22,257 nucleotides of DNA from a virus. A program made the position numbers and the translations under genes. Positions 2,556 through 21,544 of this stretch are shown here, piece after piece. The stretch lies in the IMG/VR virus record IMGVR_UViG_3300050025_000074, positions 1 to 22,257 of that record. One strand, 5' to 3'. Each line of letters begins with the position of its first letter. Position 1 is the stretch's first letter. Below the pieces are notes generated by a model, which saw only the letters and a program-made list of their open reading frames with translations, made no database searches and had not been told where the DNA came from.

Positions 2556-3392
2556 TCAATTTCTTTCCTTCAACCAGTTGGCTATTCCCTGAGCCAACTG
2601 TTCTGGTAAATCTTGTTGCAGAAGCACTTGAGCTGCAGTTGCAAGATCGAATTCGTGCCCTGGATGATGCCCAGGTCCTTCTCTCTTGGCTCTGCCATCT
2701 AGTAGCTCCAGATTCTCTGGTCTGTTGTCTGCTCGAATGCCGTTCTTGTGATGTACCAACTCCCACTCCTCCAAGTACCTTCCCAATTGCTGTTCCATCA
2801 CCAAACGATGTTCGAAAATAGTACCGTCTGCGCGAGCATGAGGATGCCCTTCTGGAGCTGCTCGAAGCACGTACCCATCTCGGCTGCTCCCCACCCATCT
2901 CTCTCGTTCCCGTTTCTTGCCATTTGACAGCAAATCTCGCAGCTGATTCCCCTGCTCGTCTATTATTCCTGTATTTCGTTGTTGCGCGTGCTTGCTGCAC
3001 ATCCAACGATTTACCGGACGTTTCAGACAGCCGGCGACACAACAAGTTGCTTGCCCGTACGTCGCAGTTGCTTTTTCGTGGCCTCGATCTGGAATCTCTA
3101 TTCCCAGGTCTACTCCAGCTTCCCACTGCTGATAATGCTTTGGGCACAGACCCCTGCCAATGGGTCTGCTTCCGCAGCCAGAAACTGTGCATCTTGCCCC
3201 GGGCCCGTAACTTCGAATACGCTTGGGCTCGTACAGAGACTTCCCCTCGCGATCTATCTGACCACGACGATTGGCCATATAGTGCATTCGACAAAGGCCA
3301 AATGAACCATTCTCGGTCGTATTGATGCAACCAATAACTTTGCATGATCCGTAATCTGTTTTCTTGGGTCTTCCTGGGTGTCTCTTGTTCAT
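2556..3392 (-). CDS. HNH homing endonuclease with three Cys/His zinc-binding repeats
   Basis: A 278-aa protein with three copies of a C-x4-C...C-x2-H module (C17/C22/C34/H37, C68/C73/C83/H86, C118/C122/C132/H135), each followed by an aromatic or basic helix, probably DNA-contacting. The C-terminal HNH domain begins near W166 (GYVLRAAPEGHP), with EHRLVMEQQLGR (194-205), HHKNG (214-218) and N223/P225/N227, the classic phage HNH pattern. It ends in a short amphipathic helix with NWLKERN. The ATG at 3392 has its SD (AGGAG) partly inside a perfect hairpin (3396-3419). It sits between sheath and tube, where it has no structural role, as expected for a mobile endonuclease. Another reading frame on the same strand stays open across most of it, but its translation lacks domain order. 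Confidence 0.9.
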   Translation of the reverse strand: MNKRHPGRPKKTDYGSCKVIGCINTTENGSFGLCRMHYMANRRGQIDREGKSLYEPKRIRSYGPGARCTVSGCGSRPIGRGLCPKHYQQWEAGVDLGIEIPDRGHEKATATYGQATCCVAGCLKRPVNRWMCSKHAQQRNTGIIDEQGNQLRDLLSNGKKRERERWVGSSRDGYVLRAAPEGHPHARADGTIFEHRLVMEQQLGRYLEEWELVHHKNGIRADNRPENLELLDGRAKREGPGHHPGHEFDLATAAQVLLQQDLPEQLAQGIANWLKERN

Positions 3393-3444: not shown

Positions 3445-6400
3445 TTAAATAATCAATGTGACACGAATATAATTCACGGGCAGAGGAATGTCGAGGACCA
3501 CGTCCACCAAAACACTATCGGGTGCATCCGCATCCTGGATGATGTTATTCAAATCTCCGCCGATCAAGACACCAGCCTCACGAAGGAATCCCAGTTGTCC
3601 TTGAACTACTGTGGACAAAGTATCGAGGAATGAGTGCGTGATATTGAACCTACCGATGAAATTCCTCAATCCGACCCTCATAAACTTCGCCACGAAGTCC
3701 ACGATTCTTGTGACCGAGAATTCACGAGTCTCGATACTCGTTAGATCTGTTGTCACCTGCATACGAGTAGTAAGAGGTGCTCCCTTGGTTTCTTGTACTA
3801 CCCAGTAAGTACCACCAGCAGCCCCCACATTCATTTGTGTCCGGCTGAAGACATCATTCGAACCCAGGACTCTTGTAAATCCCGCGATTGGGTAGTTAGT
3901 GAAGCCCTGTTGAGGCGGTAGTTGTCCTACCATACCCGCGATAGCTGCATTGATGTAGTAGCCAGCGATTTCTTGTTCCACTCCGCCGATGACCGAAGCA
4001 GTCTTCTCAGGAGCAGTCATGAGCACACGGCGGTTGCCGTAAGACTGACCCAACTTCTGGTAAGCCTCTGAGATTCTTTCATAGTCCGGCAACCCTGTTA
4101 GTGTTACCAACTCTGTTCCGCGAACATATACTGTGAATCCCACTCCTATCAACTGCTTCGAGAACGGAGGAGTATCTTGTGAATAGAACCCGTCGTCATT
4201 TTGTCCAGGGGCAAAGGCTACTCGGACCAAGACACGAGTTCCTGAAATCTGAGAAATGTTATAGTGCTCAGCACTGGTTGCAACCTGCAAGTACAGACCA
4301 GCATCAGCTGGGATAGTACCGGTAGGATTGATCTGATTTGCCTGCAAATCAGCAGCTAGGCTAGCCACTTTGGTATCGAACCAATAACCGGAAGGAGCTG
4401 TTGCTAGTGTGTCTCCTTCTCCGCTAGCCACCAAGGCAGGCAAGTCTTCACTTGGCATCTTGGGGTTAATCAGTACCACTCTTTCTCCGCCGGCATCTGG
4501 GTCAGACATAGCCAGCACGTGAGCCATAGCAGACTGATGCACGAGTGGATTTTGTGAAGCTGGAGCAAGAGCATAGACTTCTTGAGCTTCCAAGAAACCA
4601 AACGCTTCAGTGTAGGCTGCTGGAGTACCATCAGGGTCGTTAGCATCCACAGCACTTACTCCGATACCCGTGACTGAGATACCTGGGGCATTGACCATCA
4701 TGAAGTAGAACATGAGTCCCAGTGGATTCGTTATATCCAACGGGGACAGGGTATCTTCCAGTACAGTGATATCGCCGAAGGTAAGCAGGGACGGTTTCTT
4801 AGACTGTGGGGATACATCCAAGCGAAGGGCATTGTATGCCACCACCAAGGCTCCGAGAACATTGGTAAGTGGGAATCCTTCTGTATCCCGGAGCACATTC
4901 GCCTTGATGAGAGCAGCACCAGAGGGGTCAATAACCAAGTCTGGTGTCGGTCTATCGGGCGGCAATGTTGCTGGAATATTCATAGCTTCGATATAGAAGG
5001 CTTGTGCTACGAAGTCCAAAGAGAGCTCTCTATCTAACTTGAGCTGTGTTTGATCTGCTCTGGGGGCTACGGCTGCAATATTGCCAATGAAAACACCATC
5101 AGCAAAGACTTGGTCTCCAACCTTTGGTGCAAATGGATTACCATTCGTCACGTAATTGTCCGTGAATCCTAGGTCCGAGTTCGCAGTCCCAAGACCAATG
5201 CGAATCTCAGACTCTGAACCACTGATCAAAGAACTCAATACTAGATGGTTAGAACCATCGTCGGATGCAAAACTCGCACCCATGGTAGCATTGAGCTTTA
5301 CTTTGAGATTAGCAAGACTGATAGTTTGAGATACTACTGATGGGGTGGACGTAATGACATAGCTTGCGAAACCAAGAGCTCCGAATACAGTATCGTCATC
5401 AACAGAGCCACCGTAAGTCAGTGATATAGAACCACCTGCTACTGCTACTTGGCCGCCCACCTGGAATGACAGTTTAGTGCCTGTTAAGCTATAAGCACCA
5501 TTAGCATCAGAACGGTAGCAAACGATAGTGCCTGCAGCCCCATTGATCTGACTTGCCACATGCGCAATATCAGCTGGGGTAGCAAATGTAACTGTCTTAC
5601 CAGACCCGTTCACTGTGAATGCGAAAGTCTTCCCATCCAAACCTGTAGTTACCAGGTCAGGAACACCAAAGATTGGGCCTGCATCAATAGTCAAGTCTTG
5701 CTCTGGACCCCCATTCAACCCTACCTGGAAAGTCTTGTTGTGAATGGCTAGATTTCCCGCGATAGCTACAGAGCCTGTCACTGTGGCAGCACCAGCTGAT
5801 GCTGAGAAGTTATCTTGCGGAGCTACAAGCAGTGGACTGGTTGCATCCCCATCTCCATCATCGGCTACTGCCAACGTGTAAACTACATCAGTGTCGTGGA
5901 AGTGAAGGAAGTCGTGAGCAGTATTCGAAGGAGGTGCTACGATCTTAATATAGCCAGCAGGGCTTTCGATCTGAATCTTGAGTGCGTCCGAAGTTGAAAC
6001 AGTAACGACTGCTTTGGACCCATCTGCAGTTATCACCGTCTGCATAGCATCAGCTACACCAGACACAGTAGTTGGGTTAGTAGTGAATGTATGGGTCTCT
6101 GTAATCCCCTGCAGCCCTTGCTGGAAAGAGAATTTTAGACCAAATACTGTTGTTGGGATAAGAGTTATGTCAGCTGTAGACGTATATTGTGCTGCTCTCC
6201 CCTTCCGCAAAAAGGTTTGGGTACGAAGCAGCTCAAGCAGAGTCTTTCCCGTGTTTACGAATACACGAATGCTGGCATCGTCTACAACCAGCTCATCAAT
6301 GATGCCACGGGGGTCAGGGAAGTTCAGCTGCTCCAGACGTATGGCCGTCTGGTTGTAGTTGGTAACCCCAAATGCTTGGTAATCATCCGCGAAGCCAAGA

Positions 6401-6867
6401 CGGGCATTTGCAGAACCAGCCAAGACCTTCAAACTTTGGCCGTCCCCAGTTGCAGTAGTACGTAGCTGTACGAACTTGCTACCCTCCGCAACAACCACGT
6501 ATGCGCCAAAGCCTTGTGGAGACTGGGACTCAATCTGATCTACTACTTGCCCCGCATCCAACTCCGCACCTGCGGGAGCAGTAAAAGTGAACGCTTGAAT
6601 TGGTCCATTGTTGATGCTCACATCAAGCTCAAGAGTATCCATACCTGTGTATGGGGCTGGAAGTCCAGCGACCAAGATAGCCGGCACAGAGGCAATAGCC
6701 TGTGAGTTCAGCACCTGGTTACCGGTAGCATCAGTAGTCATAGCAGGAACTACTTGGAATCCGGGGGCGATAGCACACGGAACCAAGGTAGGAACCACTA
6801 TGGTAGGGCTGACAGCACGAAACTCTTGGATGACGGAAACGCCAGGTTGTGGCAACTGAGTAGCCAT
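3445..6867 (-). CDS. Contractile tail sheath protein, unusually long with inserted beta domains
   Basis: An 1140-aa sheath. The N-terminus (QPGVSVIQEF) is the typical sheath opening. The C-terminal core, roughly 660-1140, has YALAPASQNP, HVLAMSDPDAGGERVVLI, a late VTRIVDFVAKFMR, then NFIGRFN and a final VNYIRVTLII, the usual sheath ending with the strand that links subunits. Subunits polymerise around the tube and contract to drive it into the cell. Known sheaths such as T4 gp18 are about 660 aa. The extra length lies between about 75 and 575 as several beta-rich units, three ending in an LGF element (RLGFADDY, GALGFASY, DLGFTDNY) and one in a similar FLHFHDTD. The ATG at 6867 has an AAGGAGATC SD. 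The following gene downstream is an HNH insert, then the tube. Confidence 0.92.
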   Translation of the reverse strand: MATQLPQPGVSVIQEFRAVSPTIVVPTLVPCAIAPGFQVVPAMTTDATGNQVLNSQAIASVPAILVAGLPAPYTGMDTLELDVSINNGPIQAFTFTAPAGAELDAGQVVDQIESQSPQGFGAYVVVAEGSKFVQLRTTATGDGQSLKVLAGSANARLGFADDYQAFGVTNYNQTAIRLEQLNFPDPRGIIDELVVDDASIRVFVNTGKTLLELLRTQTFLRKGRAAQYTSTADITLIPTTVFGLKFSFQQGLQGITETHTFTTNPTTVSGVADAMQTVITADGSKAVVTVSTSDALKIQIESPAGYIKIVAPPSNTAHDFLHFHDTDVVYTLAVADDGDGDATSPLLVAPQDNFSASAGAATVTGSVAIAGNLAIHNKTFQVGLNGGPEQDLTIDAGPIFGVPDLVTTGLDGKTFAFTVNGSGKTVTFATPADIAHVASQINGAAGTIVCYRSDANGAYSLTGTKLSFQVGGQVAVAGGSISLTYGGSVDDDTVFGALGFASYVITSTPSVVSQTISLANLKVKLNATMGASFASDDGSNHLVLSSLISGSESEIRIGLGTANSDLGFTDNYVTNGNPFAPKVGDQVFADGVFIGNIAAVAPRADQTQLKLDRELSLDFVAQAFYIEAMNIPATLPPDRPTPDLVIDPSGAALIKANVLRDTEGFPLTNVLGALVVAYNALRLDVSPQSKKPSLLTFGDITVLEDTLSPLDITNPLGLMFYFMMVNAPGISVTGIGVSAVDANDPDGTPAAYTEAFGFLEAQEVYALAPASQNPLVHQSAMAHVLAMSDPDAGGERVVLINPKMPSEDLPALVASGEGDTLATAPSGYWFDTKVASLAADLQANQINPTGTIPADAGLYLQVATSAEHYNISQISGTRVLVRVAFAPGQNDDGFYSQDTPPFSKQLIGVGFTVYVRGTELVTLTGLPDYERISEAYQKLGQSYGNRRVLMTAPEKTASVIGGVEQEIAGYYINAAIAGMVGQLPPQQGFTNYPIAGFTRVLGSNDVFSRTQMNVGAAGGTYWVVQETKGAPLTTRMQVTTDLTSIETREFSVTRIVDFVAKFMRVGLRNFIGRFNITHSFLDTLSTVVQGQLGFLREAGVLIGGDLNNIIQDADAPDSVLVDVVLDIPLPVNYIRVTLII

Positions 6868-6883
6868 TATTGATCTCCTTGGT

Positions 6884-7687
6884 CTAGATCTTATGTTCCT
6901 GAATCGATTGTCCTCTAAGTGGCTGACGTGGTCCGCCCCTCATTGTATCTAATCCTCTATCTCTCATAACGGGGACTTGATCTTGTGTCTCCGGCAAATG
7001 CATTTTAGATCTGATTTCCTCTGCCCGCGATTTGAAGACAGTAGAAATATGTTGGAGCGTATAGATTGGATGCCCATCAAACTCGTTTTTCAAGGGTGTA
7101 ACCAAATCTGTATATTGCAAGTACACAGGTACAGTTACAGGGCACACAACCCATTCCGCCTCTGTATCTCCGGTCACTAGAGCTCCAGCTGGAGTGACAG
7201 AACCTATTTCATTTTTCCGGCCACATTCTTGGATACCCTTCTCCGCGATGAAGAGCTTGCGGAGTGACCAGATCATACGGGCATTCTGCCAAGCTAAGAA
7301 TCTAGCTTCGGACTGTACCCTGGACAGACAGTTGATAGTGATGTTGGTGGGTAGAAGGTCTGTATGCTTCTCCGCAGCATTTCTTACATTGACCATGACA
7401 CGGTCATCCAACGAGCTACCATTGAACCGTGTAGGTCCAAGGGCGACTGCCAGGGCTGGACGTTTTTCCATTGTCTCGACGTGCACAGGGTTTTCCTCGG
7501 TGATGACTAGTTCAGTTTCCTCCGAAAGGGGGGTCCAATGGAAGCTTCCTTTTGGGGCTGTTTCCCAGACCGTTTGTAAGAAGGCCACGAACACTCTGAC
7601 CAGATAGTTCAGTGGGTCATTTCCCCACGAAGATGTAAGCTCCGAAGAGGCAGAGATGCGGCTGCTGGAATCTGGGGCATTACTCAT
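6884..7687 (-). CDS. Probable tail terminator / neck-type protein
   Basis: A 267-aa protein directly before the sheath gene, where myoviruses often keep the tail terminator or a neck protein. It has a Ser-rich start, then WGNDPLNYLVRVF, a helical segment rich in aromatics, and alternating beta stretches (PALAVALGPTRFNG, WVVCPVTVPVYLQY). The C-terminus is basic and disordered (RGGPRQPLRGQS). No diagnostic motif is visible, so the role is from position only. I start at the ATG at 7687, with a weak AGG about 10 bases upstream and an 8-base overlap with the upstream stop. An ATG at 7705 would add six residues but has no SD. Confidence 0.6.
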   Translation of the reverse strand: MSNAPDSSSRISASSELTSSWGNDPLNYLVRVFVAFLQTVWETAPKGSFHWTPLSEETELVITEENPVHVETMEKRPALAVALGPTRFNGSSLDDRVMVNVRNAAEKHTDLLPTNITINCLSRVQSEARFLAWQNARMIWSLRKLFIAEKGIQECGRKNEIGSVTPAGALVTGDTEAEWVVCPVTVPVYLQYTDLVTPLKNEFDGHPIYTLQHISTVFKSRAEEIRSKMHLPETQDQVPVMRDRGLDTMRGGPRQPLRGQSIQEHKI

Positions 7688-8009
7688 GTTTGCCGTACCT
7701 GACATACTGATCTACGTGTGGCCTATGCATACTATGAAGCATACCAAGAGCACCACCCAACACAGCAGAAGCTGCAGGTGCATACTTGGATACAATGCCT
7801 GGATGATTCTGGAGCAAGTACTTCCTGGCTGCGTAACCTGCTCCCGTACCTAAGCCAGCACCAGCCGCACCAACTAGAGCAACATGCATAAGTCTCTTCA
7901 ATCTGTCCTTGGTGACGAACGGGCCACCTGGACCTTCGCCGGGCTCTTGCTTAGGAGCAGAGTCTCCTATCTTCTCCAGTTCATCAAAGAATGAGCTAGT
8001 GTAGATCAT
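7680..8009 (-). CDS. Small glycine-zipper protein with FFDELEKIG N-terminal motif
   Basis: A 109-aa protein of unknown function. It opens with the motif FFDELEKIGD (7-16), shared in form with the 90-aa and 405-aa proteins of this window. An acidic Gly/Pro linker is followed by two Gly/Ala-rich hydrophobic helices (about 42-60, VALVGAAGAGLGTGAGYAA; about 78-93, YAPAASAVLGGALGML) of glycine-zipper type that could insert in a membrane. The C-terminus is His/Arg-rich (HRPHVDQYVRYGKHE). Its ATG overlaps the stop of the upstream gene as ATGA with no clear SD, so it is probably coupled. A virion protein that enters the cell membrane at infection is a possible role, inferred only from composition. 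Confidence 0.75.
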   Translation of the reverse strand: MIYTSSFFDELEKIGDSAPKQEPGEGPGGPFVTKDRLKRLMHVALVGAAGAGLGTGAGYAARKYLLQNHPGIVSKYAPAASAVLGGALGMLHSMHRPHVDQYVRYGKHE

Positions 8010-8917
8010 GGGAACGGGCCATAGACAGCAAAGATATCGTTGATAGCCTGAGTTTCGAAAGCTTGTAGGTCCTGGGGATTCAAGAAGTTGCGGATGGGGC
8101 TAGGCTCAAAGTCTCTCAGATTCTCTATACGTATGGGAAGCTGGTACTCCACATCCCCCTTGATAATCTCATGCAACACCATCTCTTGATGTACTACTGC
8201 TCTCAATCTTTCCGTCGGTGTTACTTTCACTACCCGCCACCGCTTGTTAGTCATCTCCACGATGATATCTCTGGGCTTCATGATGGGGAAATTAGGCATC
8301 CTGGCAGTAGTATCTCTTTGACCACGCTCTGCGATGGGCAAGTTCTGGACAGAAGTAGAGGATGGATCAATCTGCATATAGATTTCGATCGGTGAGTAGT
8401 AGCCCCTTACGAACGTGGTGTCAAAACACGAGAAACAATTAGATCGACGCTTCTGGCTAGTGAACCCTTTACCCTTTTCCGGGCCGTCATAACAATTCTG
8501 GCAACGCTTACCAAAAGTGCGGATAGGGAAAACGAAGCACTTAGTACCTGCGTACTCATTCCATAGTAGCCGTTCTAGTCTTTGTACTTCTTCCGCGATG
8601 AGGTCAGGTTCATTAGCAAAGGTGAAGGCATCAGACTCTTCTACGTTGGTGCTATCTACCTTCTGTACGCTTTTGATCTTATAGTAAATCTGTCTCCAAC
8701 GATGAAGCAGATTGACTTTGTTGTCTACGAAGCGGTAGTGGTCATCGAAGGGCCCGGCGATAGTATCAAACGGGCCCATAGGAGATTCAGAGCGGAGGAC
8801 ATAGAACGAGAAGTCCATAGGGTCAAGCTCGGTCTCTTTGATCTCCCAGAGGACCTCCAAAAAGTCCAGAGAGAAGCTCCGGACTTTGGTATTCACGAAT
8901 GTTAGGTTCTGAGGCAC
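8006..8917 (-). CDS. Fn3-like plus zinc-ribbon virion protein
   Basis: A 303-aa protein starting at a GTG (8917) preceded by AGTAGGTAGG. Residues about 8-100 look like a fibronectin type III fold: SFSLDFLEVLWEI, then YVLRSESPMGPFDTIAG, YRFVDN, and WRQIYYKIKSV, with the Y-x-I-K end strand. A helix follows, then a zinc ribbon with C139/C142 and C161/C164 around a basic loop (KGKGFTSQKRRS). The C-terminal part is beta-rich (DIIVEMTNKRWRVVKVTPTERLR) and ends in helical and loop segments. Placed just before the terminator-candidate and sheath genes, it is probably a neck or tail-completion protein. I do not recognise a named family. Confidence 0.75.
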   Translation of the reverse strand: MPQNLTFVNTKVRSFSLDFLEVLWEIKETELDPMDFSFYVLRSESPMGPFDTIAGPFDDHYRFVDNKVNLLHRWRQIYYKIKSVQKVDSTNVEESDAFTFANEPDLIAEEVQRLERLLWNEYAGTKCFVFPIRTFGKRCQNCYDGPEKGKGFTSQKRRSNCFSCFDTTFVRGYYSPIEIYMQIDPSSTSVQNLPIAERGQRDTTARMPNFPIMKPRDIIVEMTNKRWRVVKVTPTERLRAVVHQEMVLHEIIKGDVEYQLPIRIENLRDFEPSPIRNFLNPQDLQAFETQAINDIFAVYGPFP

Positions 8918-10739: not shown

Positions 10740-11957
10740 TCAATCTCCTGTTTGTGGTAGGCTCTGAATTCTCTGTTGTAACTGGCCGGGGCTCTCTAGT
10801 CCTTGGCTCTCTCGTCTAGACTGATTGTACTGTTTAACCTTACGAATCAAGTATGGTGCAGCTATAGCAGGCAAGCCCATTCCTAAAGCATATGTACCGA
10901 AGCCCTTACCTAGTTGTCTTTTAGCCAGGCTCATCTGTTGCGGAGAGAAGAGTCCAGTACGCTTCATAGACTTGATCGCATTGATCGAAGCCATAGCTTC
11001 TTCTCCCAGGATAGGTGCCACACCAGCAGCCCCCATCAGAGGAGACAACTTGGAAGCAGTACTATCAGGGTCTGCCATCGTCGCGGAAGTCATACCAGCT
11101 ATACCACCTGCATAGGCTGCAGGTGCTCGTAATGCATGGGTCAACTTTCCGATTGTGGAGTTGCCAAACATCGCATGACCGAATTCGTGGGCAGTAAAGT
11201 GAGGACCTGCCTTCATGGGTGCCATCACATGCCCAGTCTCCAGAGCATGCAAAGCATCCTTCTTAGACTGTGCCAATATGTTGGCATCGCCAGCTAGGGC
11301 AGCATCACTTACAGGCTCATCGTAGAGACCTGGGTTCTCTCTTCGCATCTCCTCTAGGGAGCCCTTGAATTTTGCTATGTTCGACTTAGCAAAAGCTGGT
11401 ACGTACTTCTTGGATTCGTGCCCTCTCAAGAACTTAGGTAGGAAACCGCCTTTTGGTACTGACAAAGCATCCAGCATACCGCCCTCTGGTAAGCCAGTAG
11501 TAGGGACTGCGTGACCCATTTGCTTGGTCAAATCTGAGTGTAGGGCTATTAGCTCTTCTGGGGTTGTACGGGAGTTCAGCTCACTCTTGATCAGAGGGTT
11601 CTTTAACAACTTTGTTCGGGCATACAAAGCACCACCACTAAGCCCAGCGGCACCTAACAGACCTCCAGCCCTCTCAGCACCGTGGACATTGCTGAGTTGA
11701 TTAGATAGGGCGCCTCTGAGTGCTTCTTGTACCTGGGGGTTCGTTTGATCTTGCTGTTCTAGCTCTTGAACAGTCTTGTGAGCTTTCGCCTCTCCTCTAG
11801 ACCTACCACCCTCACCCCAGGGGCCATACTTGTACAAATCTGCTGCACCCACCAAACCTGTGAGGGCAGAACTCATCTCATGCTGCCCCATTGACGGGAT
11901 GGCTAATTTAGTCAACTCGTCTACGAAGGCTGCTGCTTTGATCTGACCGGCGAGCAA
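10740..11957 (-). CDS. Putative virion zinc metallopeptidase, YugP-like (HEFGH motif)
   Basis: A 405-aa protein. The start is a TTG at 11957 with a good SD (AAGGAG) that overlaps the preceding stop. Near the N-terminus is FVDELTKLAI (11-20), the shared targeting-type motif. The C-terminal half has FTAHEFGHAMFG with the zinc-binding H257-E-F-G-H261. A Gly/Ala-rich possible membrane segment follows, then GEEAMASINAI (E319/E320, the candidate third ligand) and about 20 residues later LSPQQ-like helix spacing and GTYALG (354-359). In bacterial YugP-type (Zn_peptidase_2) proteases an HExGHA motif, a membrane segment, an E-x-x-AS helix about 60 residues on, and a TYVA segment occur in this order. 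Catalytic H, E, H are all present. The substrate is unknown: cell-envelope protein or virion protein processing are both possible. Confidence 0.7.
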   Translation of the reverse strand: MLAGQIKAAAFVDELTKLAIPSMGQHEMSSALTGLVGAADLYKYGPWGEGGRSRGEAKAHKTVQELEQQDQTNPQVQEALRGALSNQLSNVHGAERAGGLLGAAGLSGGALYARTKLLKNPLIKSELNSRTTPEELIALHSDLTKQMGHAVPTTGLPEGGMLDALSVPKGGFLPKFLRGHESKKYVPAFAKSNIAKFKGSLEEMRRENPGLYDEPVSDAALAGDANILAQSKKDALHALETGHVMAPMKAGPHFTAHEFGHAMFGNSTIGKLTHALRAPAAYAGGIAGMTSATMADPDSTASKLSPLMGAAGVAPILGEEAMASINAIKSMKRTGLFSPQQMSLAKRQLGKGFGTYALGMGLPAIAAPYLIRKVKQYNQSRRESQGLESPGQLQQRIQSLPQTGD

Positions 11958-11962
11958 GGACT

Positions 11963-13894
11963 CTACTCCTTGCTACCGGCAGATGGTGGCTTGGCTGCCT
12001 TTGGAGCTGATGACTTGGGTTGCTGGATATGGATATTCACAGGAGCCCCACTACCCCCTCCGGCAGTACCTCCTGGTGCTGGTGGCCCTCCGGCTGGTGG
12101 ACCGGCATCAGGAGCTACTGGTGGACCTCCTGGGGGCCCTCCAGCTGCTTCAGGAGGAGGTGCTGGCTGCGCATCTGTCGTAGGAGCCATTCCACCTGGG
12201 GTAGCTGCTCCTGGAGGGCCTGCTGCGCCTGCATTGGGGTCCTGACCTGGGAGTGGGGCTACAGGCACTGGTGGTGGGCCTACAGCAGCTGTTGGGTCTT
12301 GGGCCAGCATATCCATCAAGCTTTGGCGATAGGAGGTGATAGCCTGGCGGAGAGCAAGAGCTTGTTGTTGAGCTACCAGGGATTCATTCCTTGCCATCAT
12401 AGCTTCTTGAGCAGAGGCAGCTGCTTGTTCACCAGACATCTGAGCCTGTCCCATACCTTCCGACTTAGCGGCATCCAGTTCTTGAATCAGCTGTTGCAGC
12501 TGACCCTCAAGCATAGAGGCTCGCTCTTCGGCGGCATCAAAGGCTTGAGTAGCCTCATCAGCACGAGTCTGATGGAAGTCGGCTTCGTTGCCCTTTTGGA
12601 TCATAGCCATAATTTCATCTACAGGGTTAGGCTTTAAGTCTTGCGGGACCTGAACCATGGGGTCTGTCTCGGGAGCAGCATCGTTACCATCATGTTCTTC
12701 TGCCGGGAATAGATTAGTAGACCTTTCCCCTTGCCCGGCGTCTACATCATCGTCGTTGGTAGATAGACCATCTCTACCTTGTTCCGCCTTCTTGTGCATC
12801 TTATGAAGGCGGTCGATGGCACGCTTCATGACATCTTTAGCTGCTGCAAGTTTAGGCTCTGTGAACTGTTCTGCACCAGCTTTGGCACCAAGGTTACCGA
12901 CCATAGCTCCGATGCCGGGCATATGGATACGTTCACCAAGGGCATGCCCAGCCATACCGCCTGCTTGACCGATGGCCTCATTGATCGCCCCGGTAGGTCC
13001 TTCCTGCATGGCGCCCGAAGCAGCTGCCTCGCCAATATCTTCTGGAGGCATAACACCTTGAGCAGCGCGGAAGAAATTACGAAGGCTCCATGCCAGTTTG
13101 ATCTTAGCTAAAGCTGCTGCCAATTTCGTAGACCTACCTGCAGCACTTGTATACATGTCTGGTTTGAGTACTTGCAAAGCTGGTTTAGCTGGCATAGCCC
13201 CCAATGCCCTGCCCGCACCAAGAGGGGCAGCTGCTTTACGAGCTAGAAGTGCCTGTCCTCCTGCTCCTAGAGCTCCACCTACTGCAGCCCCTGTAAGAGC
13301 CCCACCCAGTCTATTCCCCGGCTGGGCACTAACACCTCCCGCAGCAGCACCTACACCAGCACCAAGAGCTGGAATAACCATCTTGGGGTGTCTAGCAGCC
13401 ATACCCATTAACTTCTCACCTATGCCGGCGATGTTGACTGCCTGCTTTTCAATAGACCCGTGCTTGGCTGACCTGTGTGTATCAATCTCTTGGCCTACTG
13501 TCTTCCCGGCCACATGTCCCAGAGCCGCACCCACAGCTGTCCTGAATGCCATCTCACCAGGACTATGCCCACGGGAAGCAAGAAGACCGGCACCAATACC
13601 AGCAGCAGTACCTACACCCTTTCCGATTCTTTCTCCGCGACTACGTCTCTGCTTTGCATGCTGAGCAATATCCTGGGCAGCAGTATTGCGGATGCCGGAA
13701 AGAGTTCCAGCCTGCATAGCTTTATCGAAGTCTTCTTGGCTGACAGATACATCAGCAGCTAGCTTCAGCAAGTCCACCTCTTCCGCGAGCAGACCACCAG
13801 AAGCCAGCTTCATAATCATGAAGTGTTCAGCGGCCTTATCCCAAGGAATACTCTGGGATGGAGCCAACAGATCGTATAGGGTTTCCTTACTCAT
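11963..13894 (-). CDS. Large glycine-zipper / coiled-coil / proline-rich protein
   Basis: A 643-aa protein with no recognised family. From the N-terminus: helices with K-x-A motifs (IMKLASGG, LLKLAADV, residues 27-48); Gly/Ala-rich helix pairs of glycine-zipper type at about 90-130 and 172-218; LAAALAKIKLAW (258-269); a further Gly-rich stretch at 308-342; an acidic disordered region (375-425); a long helix predicted coiled-coil (about 428-532, rich in Q, E, A); and a Pro/Gly/Ala tail (539-643) ending in basic residues. The SD AAGGAG overlaps the end of the fibre gene. Size, membrane-type helices and place among structural genes would suit an internal or ejected protein, or possibly a tape-measure-like one, though the sequence is not a typical tape measure. 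I give no function. Confidence 0.78.
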   Translation of the reverse strand: MSKETLYDLLAPSQSIPWDKAAEHFMIMKLASGGLLAEEVDLLKLAADVSVSQEDFDKAMQAGTLSGIRNTAAQDIAQHAKQRRSRGERIGKGVGTAAGIGAGLLASRGHSPGEMAFRTAVGAALGHVAGKTVGQEIDTHRSAKHGSIEKQAVNIAGIGEKLMGMAARHPKMVIPALGAGVGAAAGGVSAQPGNRLGGALTGAAVGGALGAGGQALLARKAAAPLGAGRALGAMPAKPALQVLKPDMYTSAAGRSTKLAAALAKIKLAWSLRNFFRAAQGVMPPEDIGEAAASGAMQEGPTGAINEAIGQAGGMAGHALGERIHMPGIGAMVGNLGAKAGAEQFTEPKLAAAKDVMKRAIDRLHKMHKKAEQGRDGLSTNDDDVDAGQGERSTNLFPAEEHDGNDAAPETDPMVQVPQDLKPNPVDEIMAMIQKGNEADFHQTRADEATQAFDAAEERASMLEGQLQQLIQELDAAKSEGMGQAQMSGEQAAASAQEAMMARNESLVAQQQALALRQAITSYRQSLMDMLAQDPTAAVGPPPVPVAPLPGQDPNAGAAGPPGAATPGGMAPTTDAQPAPPPEAAGGPPGGPPVAPDAGPPAGGPPAPGGTAGGGSGAPVNIHIQQPKSSAPKAAKPPSAGSKE

Positions 13895-13903
13895 AGTAAC
13901 TCC

Positions 13904-15097
13904 TTAGTACTCAATGACAGTAACCATTCCCGCACCCCCAACACCTCCCCCCGCATTTACAGAGTAACTAACTCCACCTCCTCCTCCTCCATATCCTGCT
14001 GCACTAGCCCCAAATCCAGTCCCTTCTCCATCCCCCCCAGACCCATCTTCAGACCCATCTTCAGAGTAGTTGAACACCCTACCGTAGCTCCCAACTCCTC
14101 CTCCAATACCTCCTGCCACAGCGAGAGATTCGTCGGAATAAGAAGCTATACCAGCCGTGCCACAGGCGCCTGGAAGATTGAGATCTCCGTAGTCCCCCGC
14201 TGCTCCCCCCGCCCCTCCGCGAGCTACAAGATAATCAGTTGAACTGCCCTTGCCCCCTGACCCACCAAGCGCAGTATACGTAGTTCCACCAACTGTAACT
14301 GTGGTCGTTCCACCATGGCCTCCATCGCCACCAGTAGAAGCACCACCAGCTCCTGAGGCTCCAGTGGTTATAGCTGTTAAATTAGCCCCAGGAGAAAGCA
14401 GCAGTTTGGTAGTCGTTCCCCCATCTCCACCACCTCCTCCAGCCGCACCTCCATAGGAGTTACTAGCCCCACCGCCGCCCCCGGCTCCTCCCTTCAGAAT
14501 CAATTGACATGGACGAGAAGTATCTAATAGAGAAAAACTTGCCCCAGACTGTGCAGTAAGGACCGTAATCCTTTTCGGAGTAGTTGCGCTAGATCCAGAA
14601 GGTCCCGAAGGTCCTGAAACTCCTGATGGACCAGAATGTCCTGATGGTCCAGAGACTCCTGATGGACCTGAGGGTCCTGTAACAGAAGCTCCCGATGGAC
14701 CAGAAGGTCCTGATAGTCCAGAGACTCCAGATGGACCTGAGGGTCCTGTAACAGAAGCTCCCGATGGACCAGAAGGTCCTGATAGTCCAGAGACTCCAGA
14801 TGGACCTGAGGGTCCTGTAACAGAAGCTCCCGATGGTCCAGAAGGTCCTGATGGTCCTGATGGTCCTGAGACTCCTGATGGACCAGAAGGTCCACCTTCT
14901 GGACCGCCTGGGCCCGATGGACCAGAAGGTCCTGATGGTCCTACAACAGAAACTCCTGATGGCCCTGAGACTCCAGATGGACCTGATGGCCCTGAGACTC
15001 CAGATGGACCTGATGGACCCCCAGGAGGTCCTGGGGGTCCAGAAGGCCCGGAGGGGCCAGAAGACCCTCTTAAATGCTCATCTTTAACATAAGCCAT
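13904..15097 (-). CDS. Collagen-like fibre protein with glycine-rich tip domain
   Basis: A 397-aa protein, ATG at 15097 (MAYVKDEHL). A TTG 12 bases earlier would leave no room for an SD. Residues about 14-170 are G-P-S / G-V-S triplets forming a collagen-like triple helix, broken at regular places by GASVTG and GVSVVG. A short linker (TVLTAQSGASFSLLDTSRP) leads to a C-terminal region of about 200 residues dominated by GGAGGGGG-type runs. It ends AGMVTVIEY, a common ending of glycine-rich tail adhesins. Proteins with polyglycine tip sandwiches include the gp38 adhesin of Salmonella phage S16, so receptor binding is plausible. A 12-bp tandem at 14040-14063 encodes DGSE twice. It is probably a trimeric fibre on the virion. 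Confidence 0.85.
   Translation of the reverse strand: MAYVKDEHLRGSSGPSGPSGPPGPPGGPSGPSGVSGPSGPSGVSGPSGVSVVGPSGPSGPSGPGGPEGGPSGPSGVSGPSGPSGPSGPSGASVTGPSGPSGVSGLSGPSGPSGASVTGPSGPSGVSGLSGPSGPSGASVTGPSGPSGVSGPSGHSGPSGVSGPSGPSGSSATTPKRITVLTAQSGASFSLLDTSRPCQLILKGGAGGGGGASNSYGGAAGGGGGDGGTTTKLLLSPGANLTAITTGASGAGGASTGGDGGHGGTTTVTVGGTTYTALGGSGGKGSSTDYLVARGGAGGAAGDYGDLNLPGACGTAGIASYSDESLAVAGGIGGGVGSYGRVFNYSEDGSEDGSGGDGEGTGFGASAAGYGGGGGGVSYSVNAGGGVGGAGMVTVIEY
14673..14852 (-). repeat. 69-bp in-frame tandem repeat in the collagen-like gene
   Basis: Two identical 69-bp copies (14673-14741, 14742-14810) are followed by a third copy that matches for about 42 bases with one change. Each encodes 23 residues including the GASVTG interruption. 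Identity at the DNA level suggests recent duplication or slippage, and because 69 is divisible by three the length can change without frameshift. Confidence 0.9.
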
Positions 15098-15145
15098 AAC
15101 TACACCCAATCCCTAATAACATGATCGAAGGATCGTGATAGTTCC

Positions 15146-15814
15146 TTACGCATGTGTGATCACACAGTACTTCTGACCACTGGCAATAGACATCACTATG
15201 TTGACTATATTGGTTGATGTCACTTCCGTGACTACTACTGGACTAGAGGCAGCAGGCCAGCCTAAGATCGCATTGGCTGTTCCGGCCTTGATGGAATATC
15301 CGATCTTATCTAGGGCTATCTGCCAAGTCTGTGGTGCCTGCCCGTAATTTCGCAACTTCACGTTTGCAAGATTGGCGCTAGTTGCAAATGCAGGATTGCT
15401 TGCTCCCTGCTGAACAAGTTTAGCGGGAGTTCCCGTCACTCCCACAATTTCCCCCAGGGTGAACGTACCGTGATGCTGCACTACTTTGTAACTGGTGCTG
15501 CTCACCTTGGAGACAACACGCGCAGTAGCTTTACTAGTCTGGCCCGTAATAACATCACCGAAAGCCCAATCAGTAGCAGGAGCAGCATTAAGGGTGACAG
15601 TTTCTGCCTGAATTTGATCTAAGATGGCCGATGGAGAAAGTCCGGCACTCGTAGGGTCTGCCAAGGTAATCGTATAGTCTGTCGACCCATCATTCACCAC
15701 GATAGTCATACCATGCAAACCATATACAAGTGCCAGAAGAGGACGACCAATAATAGTTCCATTCAGGAAATCAACCAACTCCGCCGGGCTACTGAATGTA
15801 TGATAATTGTACAT
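15146..15814 (-). CDS. Beta-rich structural protein of unknown role
   Basis: A 222-aa protein. The ATG at 15814 (MYNYHTFSSPAEL) is chosen because AGGAGAC lies seven bases upstream. The frame also has a TTG at 15841 but that would place this SD inside the gene. The N-terminal part has a helix (SSPAELVDFLNGTI) then alternating beta segments (GMTIVVNDGSTDYTITL, SSTSYKVVQHHG), with a gene-end Ser/Thr/Val-rich region (VTEVTSTNIVNIVMSIASG). No family is recognised. Its place right before the collagen-like fibre suggests a base, linker or chaperone for that fibre, but this is position-based. Confidence 0.65.
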   Translation of the reverse strand: MYNYHTFSSPAELVDFLNGTIIGRPLLALVYGLHGMTIVVNDGSTDYTITLADPTSAGLSPSAILDQIQAETVTLNAAPATDWAFGDVITGQTSKATARVVSKVSSTSYKVVQHHGTFTLGEIVGVTGTPAKLVQQGASNPAFATSANLANVKLRNYGQAPQTWQIALDKIGYSIKAGTANAILGWPAASSPVVVTEVTSTNIVNIVMSIASGQKYCVITHA

Positions 15815-16063: not shown

Positions 16064-16579
16064 TCAGTAGACCCCGTACCAACCGTTAACGAAGAATAGC
16101 TCGCTGTGTACGCCAGAGGGAGAGCCCAGTAGCTGCTGGATATTCATGGCGACTTTACGTTGTACTTTTTCCTGTTCGTACTTAGTCTGGAAATCTCTGA
16201 TCCATTGCATCCACATTGGTGCTTTATCACTTACCGCGACACTTATTCCACCGTCCGAGAACTGTAGGAAGTTCCTGGTCTGCAAGATACCCACGGACTG
16301 CATAAGAGCTACAGCAGTTCCGCGGAGAGCAAAGGACTGGAAGTGCATACGAAACAGTTCTTCCAGAGTATGGTACCCCAGGTTAGGTGGAGTGCCGGCG
16401 AAGTCAGACAGGAAGTCCATGATAGCCCAAGCTATCATTCTATCTGAGTGTTCCTGTCCTTTGATCAACCGGTTCAGTTGAGGGTGGTCGCGCATGAAGA
16501 AACGTACGGTCTGGATGAAGGCATTGAAGATAGGGCTTACGCCTGCTACTCCATCCAGACCCTGTAGTTCTTGCGCCAT
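16064..16579 (-). CDS. Conserved helical connector-type protein
   Basis: A 171-aa, mostly helical protein with SD AGGAAG before the ATG. Segments such as DHPQLNRLIKGQEHSDRMIA, WAIMDFLSDFAGTPP, LQTRNFLQFSDGGISVAVSD and EQEKVQRKVAMNIQQLLG look like a well-conserved phage protein that I have seen in structural blocks, without a known function. It lies after the capsid and before fibre genes, so a neck or connector role is reasonable. No enzymatic motif is visible. Confidence 0.7.
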   Translation of the reverse strand: MAQELQGLDGVAGVSPIFNAFIQTVRFFMRDHPQLNRLIKGQEHSDRMIAWAIMDFLSDFAGTPPNLGYHTLEELFRMHFQSFALRGTAVALMQSVGILQTRNFLQFSDGGISVAVSDKAPMWMQWIRDFQTKYEQEKVQRKVAMNIQQLLGSPSGVHSELFFVNGWYGVY

Positions 16580-17195: not shown

Positions 17196-17891
17196 CTACT
17201 TGTTATGACGTCTCTTCTTATTCTTGGATACTTGCCCCTCTACCGGCGTCGCGGAAGGAGTATCAAGTGTCAAAGTAGCATCGGGGTCTGGAAGTTCTTC
17301 AGTTACTTCTTCAGAAGTAGCAGTCGGAACTGGCTCTTCCGGCTTTACTTCCGCCACTACTGTGTTGTCAACTACAGGTGGCATTAGATCTGAGAGGGTA
17401 GCAGCACCAGGAGACCCTGATGGGCCAAGAGACTGCTGGCCACAATCTGGGCCAGTCATACCCGGTGGGCCTGCAAGACCTGCATCCCCAGACGGACCAG
17501 GTCCTACCCAATCCTTCAAAGGAACGGGAAGTTCATCAGCAGGAGCTGCTGGTTTCTCGAATAGTAGTCTCCAGTTATCTGTAGAGATTTCCTTCTCTTC
17601 CACGATTTGCATACCTGGCCTCTTTACGTAGATTCTTCCATCCGGCCTCGAATCCACGAAGTAGTTCTCGGGAGTAGTAAAGGCCAGGCGTCCTTCACGA
17701 AGATTCTTTATGATCGTATCTTCCAGAAGCTTGAAAGTTGTTGCGGATATCTTGATAGGTCTCTTCGGCAAAACTACTCTACCGTCTATCCGCAGAACTG
17801 CCCTGTGCTGTGTAGTAGCCACGGCACGTTGAGCTTTAGAACTCTGAGCGCGGCACATGTTCTGAATCGTGTACATCTTCTCTTCAGCCAT
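17196..17891 (-). CDS. Protein with short collagen-like stretch and Lys/Arg-rich end
   Basis: A 231-aa protein, the first gene after the capsid terminator. The ATG at 17891 has SD AGGAAAAA. Residues 1-115 appear folded, with VLRIDGRVVLPKRPIKIS and NYFVDSRPDGRIYVKRPGMQ. A linker then holds a short G-x-y stretch (GPGPSGDAGLAGPPGMTGP, then GPSGSPG), much shorter than in the fibre gene. The rest is acidic and disordered and ends KNKKRRHNK. Unknown function. It could be a capsid- or neck-attached surface protein, since G-x-y runs are used as trimeric stalks. Confidence 0.68.
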   Translation of the reverse strand: MAEEKMYTIQNMCRAQSSKAQRAVATTQHRAVLRIDGRVVLPKRPIKISATTFKLLEDTIIKNLREGRLAFTTPENYFVDSRPDGRIYVKRPGMQIVEEKEISTDNWRLLFEKPAAPADELPVPLKDWVGPGPSGDAGLAGPPGMTGPDCGQQSLGPSGSPGAATLSDLMPPVVDNTVVAEVKPEEPVPTATSEEVTEELPDPDATLTLDTPSATPVEGQVSKNKKRRHNK

Positions 17892-18042: not shown

Positions 18043-19164
18043 TTAGAAGATTTCCAGCTGCGGGAAGACGAGACCTTCGTCCACACGATTATTGGATTCG
18101 CCCAGGTCCTCTTCCGACTTTGGAATCACATTTGCCAGCAAGCCATCAATATCAAGAATCGTAGCATCAGCGGAGTAGAGCTCCATCTTGCGTACGGCTG
18201 CGATGTTGATGACTGCCATTCCAATGTCTTCCCAGGACTGCCATGTGATCAAGTTCGCAATCTTGTCGATATAGAACTTGGTGTTATTCAGGATGAAGAA
18301 CTTCCCAAAGAAGTCCGGCTTCGTGAACAGGTAGATATTACCTGGACGAAGGATGTCAGTCTTGATCGTGCGGCAGTATGCCCTACCCAAGAGCAGGTTG
18401 TACTTGTATCCTTCGACCGTAGTCTCGGACACAATCTTGTTACCTACGTCTTCCGCCGTCCACTGAAGGATGTCATCCCAGTCGACTTCAGACATCAGAA
18501 CCATCTCACCACGCAGACGGTTTCCAGACAGCATCTTGAACATGCTCACGAAGTCTGTCTTCTGAACAGGTAGAGATGCCGATGTGGCAGTAGTTGCAGT
18601 ACGAGCAAGTTCGCCCTTACGAACGGAGAACTCGACCGTAGTACCTGCCTGTACCGTAGCGTAGTTCAGGGTCTTTACAGTGCCGCCATTGGCATCCTGC
18701 TGAAGAGCCTGTACTGCAGCTTCGATATGGATGAGGAACTCGCGGTCTTCAATCTCCTGGATGTCCTTCACCGAGTTGTCTTCGATAACCTTGGTGATGG
18801 GCATCTCGTATGCCTGAAGTTCCTGCTCCGTCTTCTCGAACTTTTCCGAGGAGATAGTGAAGAAGGCGACTTCAGCACGGGGTGCGCGAATGAAGCGTGC
18901 AGTGGGTTGGCCACGGAAGGTCAAGGCCATGGCCTTGCTCTTTGGCTCGATATCCACAATCCTCACCAACGTATCGTGATTGACGGACCTTTGGCAATCT
19001 GCTCTAGTCACCTGTTGCGGCGGAATGATCTTCCGTGCGAAGGAGACTTCGCGCAAACGGTCACGGATGTACGTACCAGCGTACTCTGCAATCTTCTCCT
19101 TGCCTTCGCTGCTATCCAGCTTCTGGGTGAAGAGATCATTTAGAATTCTGGAAGGAACGCTCAT
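18043..19164 (-). CDS. Major capsid protein (probable HK97 fold)
   Basis: A 373-aa protein with the character of the HK97-fold shell protein: an N-terminal helical arm (MSVPSRILNDLFTQKL), then RDRLREVSFARKIIPPQQVT, RSVNHDTLVRIVDIEPKSKA, FIRAPRAEVAFFTI, a helix with PITKVIEDNSVKDIQ, and a spine-like helix DREFLIHIEAAVQAL. The central part, MVLMSEVDWDDILQW, is a helix-rich A-domain type stretch. The C-terminal part has GRAYCRTIKTDIL and a final hydrophobic strand region. It has an AAGAGGT SD before the ATG. It is the last gene before the terminator, after scaffold- and decoration-type genes. The hexamer/pentamer assembly role is known of the family; the assignment is from motif and place. Confidence 0.78.
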   Translation of the reverse strand: MSVPSRILNDLFTQKLDSSEGKEKIAEYAGTYIRDRLREVSFARKIIPPQQVTRADCQRSVNHDTLVRIVDIEPKSKAMALTFRGQPTARFIRAPRAEVAFFTISSEKFEKTEQELQAYEMPITKVIEDNSVKDIQEIEDREFLIHIEAAVQALQQDANGGTVKTLNYATVQAGTTVEFSVRKGELARTATTATSASLPVQKTDFVSMFKMLSGNRLRGEMVLMSEVDWDDILQWTAEDVGNKIVSETTVEGYKYNLLLGRAYCRTIKTDILRPGNIYLFTKPDFFGKFFILNNTKFYIDKIANLITWQSWEDIGMAVINIAAVRKMELYSADATILDIDGLLANVIPKSEEDLGESNNRVDEGLVFPQLEIF

Positions 19165-21271: not shown

Positions 21272-21544
21272 TCATGCCATACTCCCAATGCCTATATCGG
21301 CTCCTGCCGGAGTCCCAAAATTTGGTTGGGAATAGTTAAGGCGTGGCCCAAACTTTGCCGCCGGTTGCACCAGCTTCAGATTCAATGGACCGGGTGCAGT
21401 CGGCGCTTTCGGGAATTGAGTGTTGGTCAGTTTGGCACGTGGAGCCCCAACAGTCTTGGAAACCCAAGGACTATCGGGGGCACGGACTTCTCCGGCCACC
21501 TTGGTCAACTCTTCGAAAAACGCCGACATGCAAATACCGGTCAT
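21272..21544 (-). CDS. Small protein with FFEELTKVAG motif
   Basis: A 90-aa protein of unknown function that begins MTGICMSAFFEELTKVAG. The motif FFEELTKVAG (9-18) is the cleanest example of the shared N-terminal motif. The rest is Pro/Ala/Lys-rich, without clear helices (KAPTAPGPLNLKLVQP). The start is uncertain: neither the ATG at 21544 nor the in-frame ATG at 21529 has an SD, so it may be translationally coupled to the gene upstream, whose stop is 10 bases away. With so little beyond the motif it could serve mainly as a packaged or processed peptide. Confidence 0.65.
   Translation of the reverse strand: MTGICMSAFFEELTKVAGEVRAPDSPWVSKTVGAPRAKLTNTQFPKAPTAPGPLNLKLVQPAAKFGPRLNYSQPNFGTPAGADIGIGSMA

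Follow-up and report, generated by a model that had tools for sequence, protein, structure and literature searches.

Collagen fibres are well known in phages. The EPcl tail proteins of Escherichia coli O157:H7 prophages are described with a characteristic Gly-Gly junction (PMC3368898), and phage SPP1 is said to encode, close to its capsid gene, an accessory virion protein of collagen-like sequence, gp12 (PMC6316719, PMC5292684). The antireceptors of Streptococcus thermophilus phages are described as having collagen repeats that part domains, one of which sets host range (PMC5601072). In the account given of phage S16, gp38 is a polyglycine-sandwich adhesin of the fibre tip, whose glycine-rich motifs are spaced by short variable segments (PMC6851490). 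Outside phages, the collagen repeats of ORF8 of the Guarani virophage, which are 27 nt long, are reported to have changed in copy number under laboratory conditions (PMC7242381). We analyzed a collagen-like fibre gene in a virus record of 22,257 bases (IMGVR_UViG_3300050025_000074), the whole of which is hereafter called the window. Our analysis makes it fairly likely that this gene encodes an optional, probably trimeric collagen-like virion fibre of a large uncultured myophage, with an exchangeable tip and an adjustable shaft.

The fibre gene is accessory: it is inserted between g15146 and g11963, both of which are conserved. We searched the viral_contigs collection with capsid patterns, for which 285 of 312 stretches encode a relative, and used the best 80 of these 285. 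Both flanking genes were found in 26 distinct loci (27 rows, loci with an identical g15146 gene being dropped), and no other gene lies between them in 25 of the 26. At the empty sites the two genes are separated by at most 19 bp or overlap, with L029 showing a second g15146 copy in tandem. Given this absence in 25 relatives, the fibre is dispensable at the site. The related contig L019 displays there a gap of 1,432 bp containing a fibre gene and, after it, a second accessory gene (14309-15070, 253 aa) without Pfam or PHROG match. Contig L010 does not differ from L019 in the 3,765 bases that were compared and breaks off just within the fibre, and contig L011 ends at the same site within a similar fibre start. 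A degenerate DNA pattern of this start retrieved only L011 from viral_contigs, and no further fibre came from scans in which g15146, g16064 or the N-terminal part of g11963 served as the query. The stop/ribosome-site sequence TAAGGA is present at both ends of the insert (window 15100-15146 and 13885-13900); it resembles the TAAGGAG that occurs once at the empty site of L006 and L008, and may be a vestige of the insertion event.

The window gene is intact and its product can be divided into three parts, which are listed in Table 1 together with the shaft interruptions and the neighbouring genes. Residues 1-170 alone score 53.7 bits with the Pfam Collagen family PF01391, for a cut-off of 27.2; PF01391 was absent from the Pfam listing when the whole fibre protein was scanned at E 0.1. 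As a preliminary description of this DNA had noticed, the shaft is followed by a glycine-rich tip, in which 72 of the 227 residues (32%) are glycines. Taken alone, the tip matches Gly_rich_2 (PF21722) with 27.9 bits, above the curated cut-off of 24.3, and when the whole protein is scanned the score is 25.1 bits; eight shuffled tips and one reversed tip gave no match. PHROG matches of the fibre mostly bear tail fibre or tail protein names, but they are driven by the collagen repeats. The phmmer comparison of the tip with the PDB returned only the Pam3 fibre chain with a non-significant E value of 0.82. The EPcl architecture was not recognized, since there was no Pfam match to PfN or PfC in the whole protein at E 0.1 or in the tip and the shaft alone at E 10. 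The gp38 family gave no Pfam match in the whole fibre or the tip either.

Table 1. Coordinates of the fibre gene, its parts and its neighbours in the window (aa, amino acids; ORF, open reading frame).
Feature	Positions	Strand	Remarks
Collagen-like fibre gene	13904..15097	minus	intact ORF, 397 aa, ATG at 15097; start homologous to MAYV..GSSGP in L019
N-terminal peptide MAYVKDEHLR, aa 1-10, putative anchor	15068..15097	minus	cf. L019 MAYVTEGH, L011 MGYVKEEHL
Collagen-like shaft, aa 11-170, 160 residues	14588..15067	minus	Gly-X-Y register; PF01391 match
Glycine-rich C-terminal tip, aa 171-397, putative adhesin	13907..14587	minus	PF21722 match
Gly-Gly junction GPPGGPSG, aa 23-30	15008..15031	minus	E. 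coli prophage collagens have a motif of this class
G4G interruption GVSVVG, aa 48-53	14939..14956	minus	
Gly-Gly junction GPEGGPSG, aa 65-72	14882..14905	minus	
G4G interruption GASVTG, aa 90-95	14813..14830	minus	
G4G interruption GASVTG, aa 113-118	14744..14761	minus	
G4G interruption GASVTG, aa 136-141	14675..14692	minus	
Exactly periodic 69-bp array, 2.55 copies, 176 bp	14661..14836	minus	107-bp exact match at offset 69
Whole 69-bp copies	14756-14824 and 14687-14755	minus	
Major capsid protein	18043..19164	minus	phrog_2522 major head protein E 1.2e-10; Arash gp226
g16064, homologue of Arash gp233 (virion protein)	16064..16579	minus	blastp E 1.7e-15
g15146, upstream neighbour, small modular protein of structural block	15146..15814	minus	conserved beside site
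g11963, downstream neighbour, conserved in relatives	11963..13894	minus	
g8006, homologue of Arash gp234 (virion protein)	8006..8917	minus	blastp E 1.5e-18
Tail sheath protein	3445..6867	minus	phrog_279 E 6.7e-08; Arash gp236

The fibre of L019 (MAYVTEGHSGSSGPAGPSG...) is 199 residues long and resembles that of the window in its start and collagen shaft. When its C-terminal part was compared with the window tip by blastp at E 10, no similarity was seen, and the comparison of tips among relatives, which the preliminary description had proposed, thus found the entire tip replaced. Because a related virus possesses a similar rod with a very different tip, we are probably dealing with a familiar type of add-on fibre on the virus surface. 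Between the window and L019, DNA identity is 86% for the capsid gene and 84% for g16064, and 69% for the fibre start and shaft. In L019 a break, GPSVSG, repeats after 23 residues; with four G4G breaks in the window and two in L019, the size of the array differs between relatives. In a search with the whole fibre, 7 of 40 records matched, and only G007 33476-33742 (the own record of L019) corresponded to a fibre at the site, the remaining matches being other collagen-like or glycine-rich stretches. The same could be said of the collection search with the L019 fibre, which returned mostly other collagen shafts. PF21722 was found in none of 30 records; as the window itself was missed too, this search was too insensitive and its result was not used.

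The shaft contains, as first described, two identical 69-bp copies and a partial third, amounting to 2.55 exact copies; over 14616-14857, the Tandem Repeats Finder program counts 3.5 copies at 95% (score 435). We separated protein constraint from DNA duplication by shuffling synonymous codons in the shaft while keeping the protein. The 107-bp run at offset 69 was reached in none of 2000 shuffles, the best one giving 41, and the identity of the copies is therefore a DNA-level event. An exact 69-bp duplication is present in L019 too, with a unit that is not that of the window (81-bp run, 0 of 2,000 shuffles). Units are 100% identical within an array and 71% identical between the window and L019, so the arrays turned over after the two phages diverged. 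The earlier proposal of a recent copying of the DNA unit is thus upheld, as duplication or homogenisation. The simplest reading of these alignments is that both arrays would have been expanded or homogenised since the divergence, and that the tip would have been swapped as a block. One could wonder whether the repeat arose in assembly, with another number of units in the true shaft, since the exactly periodic 176 bp are longer than a typical short read of 150 bases. This is very improbable, because an independent contig, L019, carries an exact duplication of a different unit and because the outer copies of the window array have diverged, as those of an older array would be.

The GASVTG break had also been said to recur every 23 residues. 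This is true of the array (residues 90, 113 and 136) but not of the entire shaft, where GVSVVG and the two Gly-Gly junctions are off the rule; by our reading of the sequence, the stretches of shaft that the breaks delimit have 5, 7, 5, 7, 6, 6 and 10 triplets. A similar duplication test was applied to 214 collagen-like ORFs from 198 other loci, which were picked by collagen-like patterns and hence represent a sample of phage collagens, not of phages. Exact tandem duplication was observed in 22 ORFs (L233 being counted on both strands), in no case with a period of 69, and such duplications are thus not special in phage collagens. In two sets of other loci, of which the first had been selected with a GASVTG-type pattern, the distance between G4G breaks was 23 residues in 5 of 78 and 1 of 14 spacings, respectively. 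A 23-residue ruler general to phage collagens was rejected on these counts. As duplication is common and the 23-residue spacing rare elsewhere, the unit shared by the window and L019 probably reflects common descent and no general rule.

The fibre gene is located inside a structural block, in the order capsid, 17196 gene, g16599, g16064, g15146, fibre, g11963, g10740, g9206, g8006, g6884 and sheath. Cultured relatives of the capsid, sheath and tube proteins, namely those of Salmonella phage Arash and Vibrio phages D69, D148 and D181, are only about 25-38% identical. Arash is described as a myovirus of 180,819 bp with a 95-nm capsid and a 140-nm tail, and its virion proteome table obtained by mass spectrometry includes Gp233 and Gp234 (PMC10585845). 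The homologues of these two proteins, g16064 and g8006, are core genes that flank the fibre region, which speaks for a virion fibre. In Arash and D181 they are adjacent, and the block from g15146 to g9206 is therefore missing there.

This position also bears on whether the protein could be the main receptor-binding tail fibre of the baseplate. The PHROG tail-fibre names would agree with such a role, and the long tail fibres of S16-like phages are described as capped by glycine-rich tips (PMC6851490). We nevertheless regard it as unlikely, because the gene is absent at the site in 25 of 26 relatives, including the close L006 and L008, and because it sits between genes whose Arash homologues gp233 and gp234 adjoin, the annotated Arash tail fibre Gp190 being elsewhere in the gene order. 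It must be added that L006 and L008 are fragments, and that a fibre could be located elsewhere in them. Alternatively, the fibre could decorate the capsid and contribute little or nothing to adhesion, comparable to SPP1 gp12 and its minor effect on the particle. The latter is described as a non-essential, trimeric collagen-like capsid protein with its gene next to the capsid gene, and the window fibre is likewise accessory and encoded in the head-to-tail gene block. However, gp12 has 64 aa, with a collagen motif and, in its description, without a large tip (PMC5292684), against 397 aa and a large exchangeable tip here. Such a tip points to selection on what it contacts, and a purely decorative fibre seems distinctly unlikely to us.

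We thus favour an optional virion fibre, which could work as follows. The conserved N-terminal peptide of about ten residues, MAYVKDEHLR in the window, would anchor the fibre to the virion. A triple helix would be formed by the Gly-X-Y shaft; counting about 0.29 nm for each of its 160 residues, the value per residue given in PMC3368898, it would not exceed about 46 nm, and it would be broken by the G4G and Gly-Gly interruptions, which could act as hinges. The glycine-rich C-terminal domain would be an exposed tip binding cell-surface material, and would constitute a separate module exchanged between relatives. Since 69 is divisible by 3, the reading frame is kept whenever a unit is gained or lost; each such event would add or remove 23 residues, about 6.7 nm and one break, and the change in length may have an effect of its own. 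On this basis, one could imagine a portable fibre cassette with two dials, in which the number of 69-bp units sets the reach and whole-tip exchange sets the target, possibly within one population. We consider this extension doubtful but, if it is true, reach and target are adjusted independently of each other, at a single insertion site, by phages of the same lineage.

Several observations weigh against the model of an optional virion fibre with an exchangeable tip. Placement in the virion is based only on synteny with the Arash virion genes, and the N-terminal peptide, which belongs to no known family, would be a short anchor. There is a single complete relative fibre, that of L019. Concerning the tip, a pattern search of viral_contigs gave 37 stretches, none of which was confirmed, and tblastn against the loci gathered in the analysis matched only the window's own loci; the whole fibre had no tblastn match in 50,697 phage records. 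Unfortunately, the AlphaFold model of the single tip sequence had a mean pLDDT (predicted local distance difference test) of 37 and was discarded as unusable. Finally, the copy number comes from one record, and short-read assembly, if used, could make it an estimate.

The upstream neighbour g15146 varies as well, with an internal insert of about 75 residues common to the window and L006 and a C-terminal extension in L019 and L011. Its core fold, predicted from 37 relatives with a pLDDT of 92.9, resembles phage sheath, flagellin and FliD cap domains, the best Z score of 8.8 being near the warning range of the tool. A weak profile match to sheath residues 69-162 was obtained, and Foldseek against the PDB gave no match for the core at E <=0.001. 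These models suggest that g15146 could be a surface-domain module. Its fold was considered as proof of the fibre location and set aside, since likeness to sheath, flagellin and FliD does not decide between head and tail.

Other features of the region may be mentioned. A second, short collagen-like tract (GPSGDAGLAGPPG...) is encoded at 17196-17891 by a structural-block gene after the capsid gene, with a weak PHROG tail-fibre match (E 0.021). The distant relatives L204, L205, L207 and L208 encode collagen-like proteins with a lipoprotein look (N-terminal ...LVACG, ...FVACG). An N-terminal motif resembling F-x-D/E-E-L-x-K-[LIV]-[AG] is common to several window proteins (10740-11957, 7680-8009 and 21272-21544), and ORFs 1712-2440 and 2556-3392, between the sheath and tube genes, look by eye like HNH-type endonuclease genes. 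Three capsid relatives are found in metagenome-assembled genomes labelled Deltaproteobacteria, uncultured bacterium and Methanoregulaceae archaeon (L312 and L314 being among them, for Deltaproteobacteria and Methanoregulaceae).

The locus provides a clear case, in uncultured phages, of an optional surface fibre with module-wise tip exchange and a shaft length derived from in-frame repeats. If the repeat number varies within a population, it would offer a natural test of selection on fibre length. A parallel can be drawn with each of the systems presented at the outset. The window motif GPPGGPSG fits the EPcl Gly-Gly junction exactly and GPEGGPSG has Glu for the first Pro of this junction type; compared with EPcl as described, the window anchor has about ten residues and the tip belongs to Gly_rich_2. 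With SPP1 gp12, the resemblance lies in the accessory status, the gene position and a place in the virion, the last of which is predicted here. The likeness to the S. thermophilus antireceptors is one of description, in a different phage class and with different tips. S16 gp38 shares the spaced glycine-rich motifs with the window tip, but it is a separate protein, reported to exceed 50% glycine in the sandwich, whereas the window tip is the C-terminus of the shaft protein. The Guarani virophage, which is unrelated, is a precedent only for number change in such arrays. The window fibre is thus a familiar design in a little-known phage lineage, and what is new here is that its gene is an accessory insert and that the tip is wholly replaced in a relative.
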